Under the pieces are notes generated by a model, which searched no databases, was not told the origin of the DNA, and saw only the letters and a program-made list of their open reading frames with translations. Position numbers and translations under genes: made by a program. From positions 1,736,001-1,800,000 of the forward strand of contig CP049016.1 in assembly GCA_004376055.2 (NCBI GenBank): DNA of 64,000 nucleotides, read 5' to 3'. Shown here piece after piece: positions 47,611 to 51,355 of this stretch. Source of the DNA: Nitrospirales bacterium LBB_01. Its GTDB lineage: Bacteria > Nitrospirota > Thermodesulfovibrionia > Thermodesulfovibrionales > Magnetobacteriaceae. Every line of letters begins with the position of its first letter. The stretch's first letter is position 1.

Positions 47611-48717
47611 ATGTTCTTGTCAACACTACAAAATTTAACTCATGAAAAAAAACAAAAGGTTTTAAAGTATTCACTTATAATAGCGGCTCTTTATACAATA
47701 ATAATAGTGTTTTCTGCCTATACGATGTATCACAATAGAGAACTATCAAATAAAAAGCATGCGCTAAGGATGAATCCCACAGGAATTGAACCAGGCAAAA
47801 CGCCTCCTGAACAGCTGCCAGAAACAGGTAATTATGCTACGGTTAAAATTGGCTCATACGTAGAAAACGTTGACAATCTGTTAATAAAAGACAGCATGTG
47901 GAGCGTTAATTTTTATGTTTGGTTTTCATGGCAAGGCGATGCAAAGCTTGACCCGGGCGGTAAACTTGTAATCGTTGACGGCATTGTAAACAAAAAAGAG
48001 CTTTTGGAGGATTACCACGGCAAAGACGGCGACAATTATCAAAGGTATCGGATTTCAGCAAAAATAATCAAGTTTTTCGATACAGCCCGTGTGCCGATAG
48101 AAGACCACATGCTTAATATCTATGTGGAGGACGGCGCAAAGGATGGCACAAAGCTCCGGTATGTTGCCGATAAAACCTCAAATATCAGCTCAAGGCTGAA
48201 TATACCCGGCTTTAAAATCACAAGTCACAGCAATGTTGTTAAAACACATACATATAAGTCAAGTTACGGCGACCCGAGACTTTCACCTGATAGTAAAAAA
48301 GTGTTTTCCCAGTATATAGCTGCAATCCAGATAAAGCGTGTTGATTTTGGTTTTTATCTCAAGATATTTCTCTCTCTGTTTGCCGCACTGCTTTTGACGC
48401 TTTCCAGTTATTTCATCAAACCCTCCGATGTTGGGCCACGCTTTGCCCTGCCGACAGGCGCATACTTTGGCGCAGTAGCTAACACGTACCTTGCTAATTC
48501 ACTTCTGCCCACATCCGGCTCGTTCGGGCTGGTTGACCATGTGGCAGGAGTCGGTCTCTTTACTATCTTTATCTCCATAGCCACCTCGTTGCTTTCTAAC
48601 TACTATGCCCGCATGGAGGACAAAGAGCTCTCATTGGCTCTGGACAGGACTATGTTTAAGGTAGTGTCTATATGCTGTGTTGCCGCTAACATTATTATTC
48701 CATGGTGTGCAAGGTAG
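47611..48717 (+). CDS. pentameric ligand-gated ion-channel-like membrane protein
   Basis: The 368-residue protein has an N-terminal membrane helix (about 18-38), an extracytoplasmic beta domain (about 75-235) and four closely spaced helices (about 248-269, 277-299, 308-333, 346-366). The beta domain has VNFYVWFSW and FFDTARVPIEDHMLNIYVE, which resemble the strand and Cys-loop-position motif (FDxxRxPFDxQxLxI) of bacterial Cys-loop receptor homologs such as GLIC. RFALPTGAYFGAVANTYLANSLLP would be the pore helix. The Cys-loop cysteines are absent, as in other prokaryotic members. The uncleaved-looking N-terminal helix is unusual. Function and ligand unknown; family call is inference. AAGGAGGG precedes the ATG. 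Confidence 0.6.
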   Translation: MFLSTLQNLTHEKKQKVLKYSLIIAALYTIIIVFSAYTMYHNRELSNKKHALRMNPTGIEPGKTPPEQLPETGNYATVKIGSYVENVDNLLIKDSMWSVNFYVWFSWQGDAKLDPGGKLVIVDGIVNKKELLEDYHGKDGDNYQRYRISAKIIKFFDTARVPIEDHMLNIYVEDGAKDGTKLRYVADKTSNISSRLNIPGFKITSHSNVVKTHTYKSSYGDPRLSPDSKKVFSQYIAAIQIKRVDFGFYLKIFLSLFAALLLTLSSYFIKPSDVGPRFALPTGAYFGAVANTYLANSLLPTSGSFGLVDHVAGVGLFTIFISIATSLLSNYYARMEDKELSLALDRTMFKVVSICCVAANIIIPWCAR

Positions 48718-48788: not shown

Positions 48789-50285
48789 ATGTATAAAAAA
48801 GTTTGCTCTAAAATTGTAATCTTAACAATACTATTGATTTTGACTTTTCCGTCAATTGCCTTTTCCTCACTAATACTTGAAGAGTACGAGGCTGTCTTTG
48901 TAATTGTTCCAAACTCAGGAGGACACTATAAAAACCTGGCAGCAACACTCAACATGACCTTCGTTTCCGATACAAGTTTTTCAAATGGTTTTAAATTTGT
49001 CGGGTCAAATGACATATCTGCCGTAAGAGCAAGGGATGAAAACGGTGAAATTCCATTTGAAGTAAAGAGATTAAATGAAAACAAGATAACTTTCAGCTTT
49101 CCAGTTATTAAAACTGGTAAGAAAAAGATAACGCTGGATTTTACAATTCATGACGCAGTCTCCTCAGGCATGTTTTCCAGCACTATTTATCTGCCGTGGG
49201 TTGGAAAGTGGAAAATTCCGGTAAACACATCGCGATATGTTATAGTGTTCCCTGAAAATTATAATTACAAAAACATAGCGTCTGATTTCCCAACCGGCAC
49301 AGAGACTACAAAACTGGATGAACGTTCGGTAGTTTTTACACCGACTAACCCGTCAGACACTTCTCTTAGTATATCCTTTAGCCCTGTGATAGATTCGGGG
49401 TATTCTAAAATATTTGAGCTTTCCGCAGGAATTTGGATATTTTTAACAGCCTTTTGGATATTTAAGTACAGAAAACTCTCAGGAGCCCGCTTTACAGACA
49501 ACTCTCAACCTGCCCCGTTTGAAGCAGCTTTTATGAAAAAAGGTAGGAATCATGCTGTCACGGTTTGTTTGTTTGATTTAATACAGAGAGGTTATATAGT
49601 TATAGATGGCGCAAAAGATATGACAGCCACTGGAAAAACCGATGGCTTAAGCAGAGCAGAGGACGCCTTGATAGACACTGTGCGTGTAAAGTCATCAATT
49701 GGTGGCATATTGAGCCAGCATGACCAGTTAAAGCGCTTTGAATATGAAACACAACGGTCTCTTGAAATTAAAGGATTGATAAAGGACTCCACAGAGACAA
49801 AACTCTTTTGCAAAAATCTGCGGTTATTTGCCGTCATCTCAATCATTGCTATTGTAGTAGCGAGTTTATATCTGGAGTTTCCTGCCGGCGGAGGTTTTAT
49901 GATGTTTTCACTCTTAGTGCCGGTAATCTCTTTTATAGCGTCACTCATTATGCAAAGGTCTGCTGTAAAAACAAATCGCGGTAAGGCATATTTGGCTCAT
50001 CTGGAGAAAAAAATAGCAGGTTCTAACCATGTTTCAGGTTCTGACGGACATTATGACCCTGAGTTAAGTTATGCGGTTGCAATACTGGGGATGACAATAT
50101 TAGCAGGGACCGTGTTAAGCGGCATATCTGAAGCAATTTTTTATAACAGAGGGGGACATGGAGGCAGCGGCGGATGCAGCGGTTGTACTCCAGGTGATGT
50201 CGGAGCCGGTAGTAGTTGCAGCGGCTGCTCTTCAGGCGACAGCGGTGGCGGAGGGTGCAGCGGCTGTGGCGGTGGAGGCGATTAG
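48789..50285 (+). CDS. DUF2207-like membrane protein with Gly/Cys-rich CSGC-repeat tail
   Basis: The 498-residue protein has a signal peptide (1-27), an exported beta-rich domain (about 28-205), a membrane helix (about 209-227), a cytoplasmic domain with FEAAFMKKGRNHAVTVCLFDLIQRGYIVIDG, two further helices (about 345-385) and a helix near 428-445. Its last 45 residues are nearly all Gly, Ser and Cys, with three CSGC motifs (Cys463/466, 477/480, 490/493). Related membrane proteins with such tails are known beside radical SAM enzymes. Here a radical SAM/SPASM gene starts 9 bases after the stop. I infer that the tail is its substrate. The last codon is Asp. Confidence 0.75.
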   Translation: MYKKVCSKIVILTILLILTFPSIAFSSLILEEYEAVFVIVPNSGGHYKNLAATLNMTFVSDTSFSNGFKFVGSNDISAVRARDENGEIPFEVKRLNENKITFSFPVIKTGKKKITLDFTIHDAVSSGMFSSTIYLPWVGKWKIPVNTSRYVIVFPENYNYKNIASDFPTGTETTKLDERSVVFTPTNPSDTSLSISFSPVIDSGYSKIFELSAGIWIFLTAFWIFKYRKLSGARFTDNSQPAPFEAAFMKKGRNHAVTVCLFDLIQRGYIVIDGAKDMTATGKTDGLSRAEDALIDTVRVKSSIGGILSQHDQLKRFEYETQRSLEIKGLIKDSTETKLFCKNLRLFAVISIIAIVVASLYLEFPAGGGFMMFSLLVPVISFIASLIMQRSAVKTNRGKAYLAHLEKKIAGSNHVSGSDGHYDPELSYAVAILGMTILAGTVLSGISEAIFYNRGGHGGSGGCSGCTPGDVGAGSSCSGCSSGDSGGGGCSGCGGGGD

Positions 50286-50293
50286 ATTGCTCT

Positions 50294-51355
50294 ATGCTTA
50301 AAGTGTGGGGCTTTGACGGGCCTTTTTACTTGCAGTGGCACATCACAGAGGACTGTAACCTTAACTGCATACATTGCTACAGGGAAAAAAGAAACATTGT
50401 TAAGCCTGAGAAATCCGATTTGATACGTGTATTAAAAAATTTCAATAGGTTTTTAAAATCAATCAACAAATGCGGCAGAATTCAGATAAGCGGAGGCGAA
50501 CCTCTCCTTTCGGAGCATTTATTTTCAATCCTTGCCGAAGCTAAAAAGTGTGGCTATCCAGTCAGAGTGCTTTCAAACGGTACTCTGGTGTCAAGAGATT
50601 TGGCAAAACGATTAAATGACTCAGGATGCCGCATTGTGCAGGTGTCTTTTGAAGGTTCTGAGGAAATCCATGACAAAATAAGAGGTGTTGGCTCATTTAG
50701 AAAAGCTCTTGAAGGCGCAAAGATACTCCACGATGAAAATATTGATGTGACTGTCATGATGACAGTATCAGATATTAATTATCAGGCATTAACAGAAACA
50801 ATTAAGCTGACCAGTCCTTATGTGCGGCGTTTTGCCTTTTCACGGCTTGTACCATGGGGATCAGCCAAAACGCTGACTGGTTCCATATTGTCAGCAAAGC
50901 AGGTAAAGGGACTGTTTAAGGAGTTTTATAAATTAGACTTACAGACTTCAGATGTAGATGTAGCAAAAACGTATCGGGATCCACTGTGGCAAGGATATTT
51001 TGGAAATGTAAACCCGTTGCTTTTAGGCGGCTGTTCAATTGGCTACAATGGAATATGCGTTGACACCGATGGTACAGTGTATCCGTGCAGACGACTTCCG
51101 CTCTCACTTGGAAATGTGCACGATATGGATTTAACGCAGATATGGAAATCTGAGATTTTGCAGGAACTCAGAAATCGTGACCAATTAAAAGGTAAATGCG
51201 GCAAATGTAAACTCAGGTGGCAGTGCGGTGGCTGCAGAGCAATAGCCTATGCTAAAACCGGAGATTATATGTCAGAAGACCCACAGTGTTTTATACCAAG
51301 CAGCATTCTATCGCCTAACTTTGTTGGCATCGTCAAAAGCTCCTCAACGTACTAA
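50294..51355 (+). CDS. radical SAM/SPASM enzyme, probable peptide/protein-modifying maturase
   Basis: The 353-residue protein has the cluster motif CNLNCIHC (Cys18, Cys22, Cys25), the SGGEPLLS motif and a C-terminal SPASM domain (GGCSIGYNGICVDTDG, YPCRR, CGKCKLRWQCGGC, Cys near 335) for two extra iron-sulfur clusters. SPASM enzymes usually modify peptides or proteins. The ATG at 50294 is the only start after the upstream gene's stop; an upstream extension in this frame overlaps the glycine tail and is not credible. The last 12 codons (NFVGIVKSSSTY) are provided by repeat B copy B, so the native C-terminus was replaced or extended. Confidence 0.85.
   Translation: MLKVWGFDGPFYLQWHITEDCNLNCIHCYREKRNIVKPEKSDLIRVLKNFNRFLKSINKCGRIQISGGEPLLSEHLFSILAEAKKCGYPVRVLSNGTLVSRDLAKRLNDSGCRIVQVSFEGSEEIHDKIRGVGSFRKALEGAKILHDENIDVTVMMTVSDINYQALTETIKLTSPYVRRFAFSRLVPWGSAKTLTGSILSAKQVKGLFKEFYKLDLQTSDVDVAKTYRDPLWQGYFGNVNPLLLGGCSIGYNGICVDTDGTVYPCRRLPLSLGNVHDMDLTQIWKSEILQELRNRDQLKGKCGKCKLRWQCGGCRAIAYAKTGDYMSEDPQCFIPSSILSPNFVGIVKSSSTY

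Follow-up and report, generated by a model that had tools for sequence, protein, structure and literature searches.

The C-terminal Gly/Ser/Cys tail of a TIGR04222/DUF2207-type membrane protein of Nitrospirales bacterium LBB_01 is, with a probability that we put at roughly three in four, the substrate of the radical SAM/SPASM enzyme encoded by the next gene. The pair lies in a stretch of 64,000 nucleotides (contig CP049016.1, positions 1,736,001 to 1,800,000), the whole of which is referred to here as the window. The proposal draws on comparative sequence evidence, namely the reciprocal co-occurrence of enzyme and tail, their adjacency despite altered gene order, the fact that two or more radical SAM lineages have been recruited, and the decay of the tail where the enzyme is missing. 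The original prediction had named the tail as the substrate and thioether bridges as the product. The first of these proposals now has strong comparative support, whereas the bond type, with its loss of 2 Da, is less secure, because one of the paired enzyme lineages is SbtM (a loss of 4 Da) and the MNIO enzymes found with this membrane protein family elsewhere form thiooxazoles.

Architecture of the gene pair

The two genes and their parts are as follows.

48789-50285, forward strand: TIGR04222/DUF2207-type membrane protein of 498 aa, the proposed substrate (TIGR04222 and PF20990 above cut-off; AF2 model)
48789-48863, forward strand: N-terminal hydrophobic segment, aa 1-25 (hydropathy; helix 3-18 in the model)
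48870-49388, forward strand: extracytoplasmic-looking beta domain, aa 28-200 (strands in the model; alignment)
49464-50105, forward strand: TIGR04222 domain, aa 226-439, with a cytosolic-looking domain and two transmembrane helices (profile, model, hydropathy)
50145-50282, forward strand: Gly/Ser/Cys tail, aa 453-498, the proposed modification site (sequence; model)
50175-50186, forward strand: CSGC motif 1, then TPGD (sequence)
50217-50228, forward strand: CSGC motif 2, then SSGD (sequence)
50256-50267, forward strand: CSGC motif 3, then the C-terminal GGGGD (sequence, alignment)
50294-51355, forward strand: radical SAM/SPASM enzyme of 353 aa, the proposed tail-modifying enzyme (PF04055, PF13186, AF2, Foldseek)
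50333-50341, forward strand: QWH signature (alignment)
50354-50377, forward strand: CX3CX2C (CNLNCIHC), the radical SAM cluster site (sequence, alignment)
51032-51289, forward strand: SPASM domain cysteines for the auxiliary clusters (PF13186, alignment)

The membrane protein matches the curated TIGR04222 model at 47.4 bits (cut-off 43, aa 226-439) and PF20990, DUF2207_C, at 38.3 bits (cut-off 33), the match to PF09972, the DUF2207 N-terminal domain, lying slightly below its cut-off (23.4 against 24.4). It is the only TIGR04222 protein in its genome (3.27 Mb, one contig). The hydrophobic segment formed by aa 1-25 is likely a signal peptide. A fold search with the AF2 model (mean pLDDT 76, pTM 0.51) returned weak matches only, those of the beta domain being to M1-aminopeptidase-type domains. 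The tail, NRGGHGGSGGCSGCTPGDVGAGSSCSGCSSGDSGGGGCSGCGGGGD, extends over 46 residues, close to the 45 or so first proposed, of which 21 are Gly, 9 Ser, 6 Cys and 3 Asp, such that Gly, Ser and Cys make up 78% of the sequence; in the model it is disordered (pLDDT <50). All three of the predicted CSGC motifs are present, starting at aa 463, 477 and 490, and their spacing, described as regular, is near-regular (14 residues, then 13).

The stop codon of the membrane protein gene (50283-50285) is followed 8 bases downstream by the probable ATG start of the enzyme (50294), rather than after the 9 bases first counted. The assignment of this next gene to the radical SAM/SPASM enzymes holds, as PF04055 (86 bits) and PF13186 (49 bits) both exceed their cut-offs and the protein displays CX3CX2C together with the conserved Cys columns of the SPASM auxiliary clusters. 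The AF2 model is good (pLDDT 84), and its top Foldseek matches, SkfB, anSME, SuiB, TigE and CteB, are peptide- or protein-modifying enzymes. The last 20 residues are unconserved, close relatives stopping at DPQCF plus one residue, and the enzyme has neither an N-terminal peptide-recognition domain nor a visible export signal. A QWH signature precedes the cluster motif in all paired enzymes, in SbtM, in AcgM and in a further QWH clade; in the comparison it was missing from AhbD-like and other heme-type sequences. Among NCBIfam models the enzyme scores best with AhbD heme b synthase, TIGR04545 (187 bits, cut-off 500). The ACGX maturase TIGR04340 (183 bits, cut-off 400), SbtM TIGR04082 (174 bits, cut-off 350) and PapB NF047865 (88 bits, cut-off 340) models also score below their cut-offs, and the StsB model gives 102 bits. 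No ACGX-repeat peptide was seen at the locus.

Upstream of the pair, the gene at 47611-48717 (forward strand) encodes a protein that has an extra N-terminal transmembrane helix followed by a region weakly resembling pentameric ligand-gated ion channels (E 0.004-0.01 with the LIC/LGIC models); copies that are 88% identical lie upstream of the pair in two genomes only (G002 and G003). This gene and the downstream TPR gene were rejected as parts of the system, being conserved only within the genus.

Enzyme and tail gene occur together

Among 396 Nitrospirota genomes TIGR04222 proteins are encoded by 18, and the same 18 carry an enzyme of the paired type, the two genes always being neighbours. With an alignment of the paired enzymes as query, the group scored 349-534 bits in 17 of the 18 genomes, the scores just beneath it (<=335 bits) belonging to SbtM-type and other enzymes; in the eighteenth genome (G232) the enzyme gene is interrupted where a contig ends in L053 and resumes in L116, the overlap being identical. 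No paired-type enzyme lacking a tail gene was seen among the 396 genomes. The Fisher p for this co-occurrence, 1.7e-31, is too optimistic owing to the relatedness of the genomes, which share ancestry, and 18 of 18 does not represent 18 independent events. In family f1 the membrane protein occurs in 13 genomes, the window's included, and the enzyme lies directly downstream in 12 of them. A TIGR04222 protein is encoded by one of 398 Bacillota genomes, that of a Lachnospiraceae, where the enzyme again adjoins it, and a search of its class revealed a second genome, likewise paired. It had been proposed that the link between tail and enzyme would fail if homologs of the membrane protein usually lacked a neighbouring SPASM gene, and in the two phyla examined this is false. 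It should be stressed that the sample comprises two phyla, Nitrospirota and Bacillota, whereas the family is found mainly in Actinomycetota.

Plasmid and viral collections yielded distant enzymes only, and the membrane protein of type B (see below) had no plasmid match. One Campylobacter jejuni plasmid record of 2,894 bases (NZ_CP029056.1), more than a third of which is spanned by a TIGR04053-family radical SAM/SPASM gene, is possibly an artefact of assembly. No MNIO (PF05114) was found in the window's own genome, and the pair does not class as an MNIO-modified RiPP. An MNIO as hidden modifier was also rejected, being absent from 21 of the 22 genomes tested, the other one containing a marginal 25.1-bit match.

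Four gene arrangements

The genes occur in four arrangements. In type A, which comprises the window, family f1 and genus g65 of f12, the membrane protein gene precedes that of the enzyme; most type A membrane proteins contain the N-terminal beta domain, and their tails end in CGGCGGGGD or similar. Type B (family f13 and G232) has a shorter TIGR04222 protein, the f13 tails ending in CGGCGS or CGGCGG, and in two f13 genomes the enzyme gene comes first, followed by one for a 254-aa nucleotidyltransferase-like protein and then by that of the membrane protein. In type C (f26) the nucleotidyltransferase-like gene is followed by those of the membrane protein and the enzyme, and in type D (Bacillota) the membrane protein gene is followed by an overlapping enzyme gene, no partner protein being present in the arrangements of types A and D. 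The alignment shows the beta domain to be missing from types B, C and D.

The nucleotidyltransferase-like genes of types B and C (L032:8092-8856, L033:8779-9540 and L052:7004-7834, all on the reverse strand) encode proteins that match PF01909 near its cut-off, the 254-aa type B protein at about 22 bits, and those of type C are 52-56% identical to those of type B. The protein reads DVN in place of the usual acidic motif and so might act as a binding partner without being a catalyst.

The number of CSGC units, put forward earlier as a feature to compare across relatives, is not conserved: in the aligned set, tails of types A to C contain 4 to 8 Cys and 1 to 4 CxxC motifs, with a constant C-terminal CxxCG end. 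Cys motifs and the C-terminal C(S/G)(S/G)CGG are retained in relatives down to 31-35% identity, the region of CSGC motif 3 being the best-conserved stretch of the tail in the alignment, and a search of the whole genome for the CxxCGGG pattern at the DNA level gave two matches, the tail and one on the opposite strand. Given this retention and the rarity of the CxxCGGG pattern, we judge the tail to be more than low-complexity chance. In type A the Gly codons at motif 3 may also provide the enzyme gene with its ribosome-binding site, and conservation of the DNA there thus has a second possible cause; type B, in which the enzyme is upstream, nevertheless retains the Cys/Gly tail end.

Natural controls

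Two genomes provide natural controls. In G015, where a genome search found no paired-type enzyme, the membrane protein gene is intact and syntenic at 86% with G018 and G016, and the tail is frameshifted, contains a stop and has lost one Cys. On our reading of this locus the enzyme has been lost and the tail alone has decayed; G015 is a draft genome, but the remaining tail traces argue against a simple misjoin. In G030 the Gly/Ser tails of the canonical DUF2207 paralogs contain no Cys, and the short flanks read show no radical SAM gene beside these paralogs. The same genome contains a paired locus (L057:5469-6810) in which the enzyme's SPASM end, its sequence scrambled, overlaps with a TIGR04222 gene that lacks its N-terminal part; this locus looks degraded, as though joined by deletion.

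Enzyme lineages

In a maximum-likelihood tree of 61 enzymes, types A, B and C are each well supported, type D enzymes join B, and C is nested in SbtM, whose model type C enzymes match at 538 bits against the cut-off of 350. Constraining A, B and C to one clade costs 191 log-likelihood units, and a single origin for all paired enzymes is rejected (p-AU 2.65e-10), whereas A and B as one clade is not (p 0.34). The tree thus indicates that the paired enzymes have at least two radical SAM origins. In the tree of the membrane proteins, built with the tails removed, type C is sister to the f13 type B proteins, and for type A the membrane-protein and enzyme trees share subgroups. Because type C enzymes fall within SbtM, but the type C membrane and nucleotidyltransferase-like proteins are close to those of type B, we conclude that the enzyme was exchanged on one substrate module.

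A widespread Nitrospirota radical SAM/SPASM clade of QWHLT enzymes of about 350 aa (L125-L138) was also observed, one tested member of which scores below the AhbD, NirJ2 and ACGX cut-offs. The neighbours read for this clade included no clear common substrate; its substrates are possibly short peptides encoded just upstream, as in L128. At L132:4745-5110 and L136:53-334, small PqqD-like-looking proteins are encoded directly after a QWH-type radical SAM gene, which suggests another uncharacterised peptide-modifying pair.

Discussion

We propose that the radical SAM/SPASM enzyme would modify Cys residues of the Gly/Ser/Cys tail post-translationally, at a stage when the newly made tail is still in the cytosol and whether or not export follows, and that the modified tail would remain attached to the envelope protein. 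The enzyme itself presumably works in the cytosol. Hydropathy and the model clearly show two transmembrane helices following the cytosolic-looking domain; aa 425-447 are hydrophobic (Kyte-Doolittle up to 1.9), yet the model breaks this segment into short helices, and the tail end of the window protein could therefore lie in the cytosol or outside. Such tails have been argued to be periplasmic (PMC12452194), in which case modification by a cytosolic enzyme would have to precede export.

With respect to the chemistry, we tentatively suggest that tail Cys may be oxidised in place to a thiooxazole-type, metal-binding group. SbtM acts on Cys or Sec in a peptide with the loss of four hydrogens, the Cys product being a thiooxazole by NMR (review, PMC11002830), while MNIO enzymes form copper-associated 5-thiooxazoles (PMC12668002), and TIGR04222 tails have been proposed as MNIO substrates, mainly in Actinomycetota (PMC12452194). 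The thiooxazoles of SbtM and MNIOs make Cys oxidation plausible for the family, and we favour this group somewhat over thioethers joining Cys to Gly, Ser or Asp. For the window (type A) the chemistry is transferred from the SbtM lineage, whose cut-off the window enzyme does not reach (see above). The predicted mass change is -4 Da per Cys for a thiooxazole and -2 Da per cross-link for a thioether. Purely by analogy, the system may function under metal (copper) or redox stress.

Cross-linking of the tail by thioethers of the sactionine/ranthionine type, joining Cys S with the alpha carbon of Gly or Ser or with the beta carbon of a following Asp in type A, shares the substrate claim with thiooxazole formation and differs in the bond. 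This is doubtful but credible, as the SPASM fold is nearest to peptide- or sulfatase-modifying enzymes (SkfB, anSME, CteB) and in type A the second Cys of CxxC often starts CX3-5D (CTPGD, CSSGD, CGGGGD), a Cys-to-Asp motif of the kind used by PapB (PMC9413430). The motif is, however, missing from most type B and C tails, and the PapB and StsB scores lie below those of the AhbD, ACGX and SbtM models (174-187 bits). Tail chemistry other than thiooxazole or thioether is unlikely. It is improbable that the enzyme acts on a small molecule, such as a tetrapyrrole in the manner of AhbD/NirJ, with the membrane protein as partner, receptor or metal donor and the tail serving, unmodified, as a metal or redox site. 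Many proteins do bind metals through CxxC motifs and AhbD gives the enzyme its best score, but that score is far under the cut-off, an AhbD-like sequence of the same phylum reaches 444 bits on the AhbD model and is without QWH, and SbtM, a peptide modifier, is one of the two or more lineages from which the paired enzymes derive; a heme-type identity for the window enzyme is rejected by both the cut-off and the QWH motif. That the genes are ordinary operon neighbours, functionally unlinked and kept by shared ancestry, is highly improbable, for although radical SAM genes are common in Nitrospirota (~25 first-look candidates per genome), the altered gene order, the other enzyme lineage on sister membrane proteins, the occurrence in two phyla and the tail-specific decay with enzyme loss all argue against it.

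The preferred system, a tail modified by its radical SAM/SPASM neighbour, resembles TIGR04222/MNIO (DUF692) pairs (PMC12452194) in belonging to the same family by cut-off and in combining a disordered Gly/Ser/Cys tail with an adjacent peptide-modifying enzyme, but its enzyme is a radical SAM/SPASM protein and the genomes lack a convincing MNIO. The text of that study names radical SAM in reference titles only, and the open-access papers searched yielded no report combining DUF2207 or TIGR04222 with a radical SAM partner. SbtM belongs to the same QWH-type radical SAM/SPASM group, includes the type C enzymes and acts on Cys or Sec; it is longer (about 540 aa), its substrate is a Sec or Cys peptide and not a membrane protein, and the window enzyme falls outside its clade. 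The ACGX system (AcgM and AcgA) likewise places a QWH-type SPASM enzyme beside a peptide with repeated Cys-Gly units (ACGTACGAG), but the substrate is short (64 aa) and soluble, and the window enzyme scores far from its maturase model. The ranthipeptide maturase PapB is also a SPASM enzyme, and its Cys-X3-Asp acceptor spacing is found in type A tails, but its model and motif fit the paired systems poorly, as described above.

The TIGR04222 family contains >3,500 proteins, and one in three of the genomes that encode it have no MNIO to account for the Cys tail (PMC12452194). For this large orphan family the present study adds radical SAM modification as a probable further route. MNIO and radical SAM enzymes are chemically unrelated, the former using oxygen and the latter being anaerobic and oxygen-sensitive. 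A broader proposal, which we regard as somewhat unlikely, is that TIGR04222 tails serve generally as membrane-anchored carriers of Cys-derived metal-binding groups, with thiooxazoles installed on a full-length protein that is never cut, by oxygen-using MNIOs (mainly in Actinomycetota) and, in Nitrospirota and Bacillota, by anaerobic radical SAM enzymes that were recruited on two or more occasions. Should the tail prove to be the enzyme's substrate, the target of radical SAM chemistry would be a multi-pass membrane protein, at its tail, and not a short precursor peptide, and aerobic and anaerobic enzymes would have been swapped on one kind of substrate.
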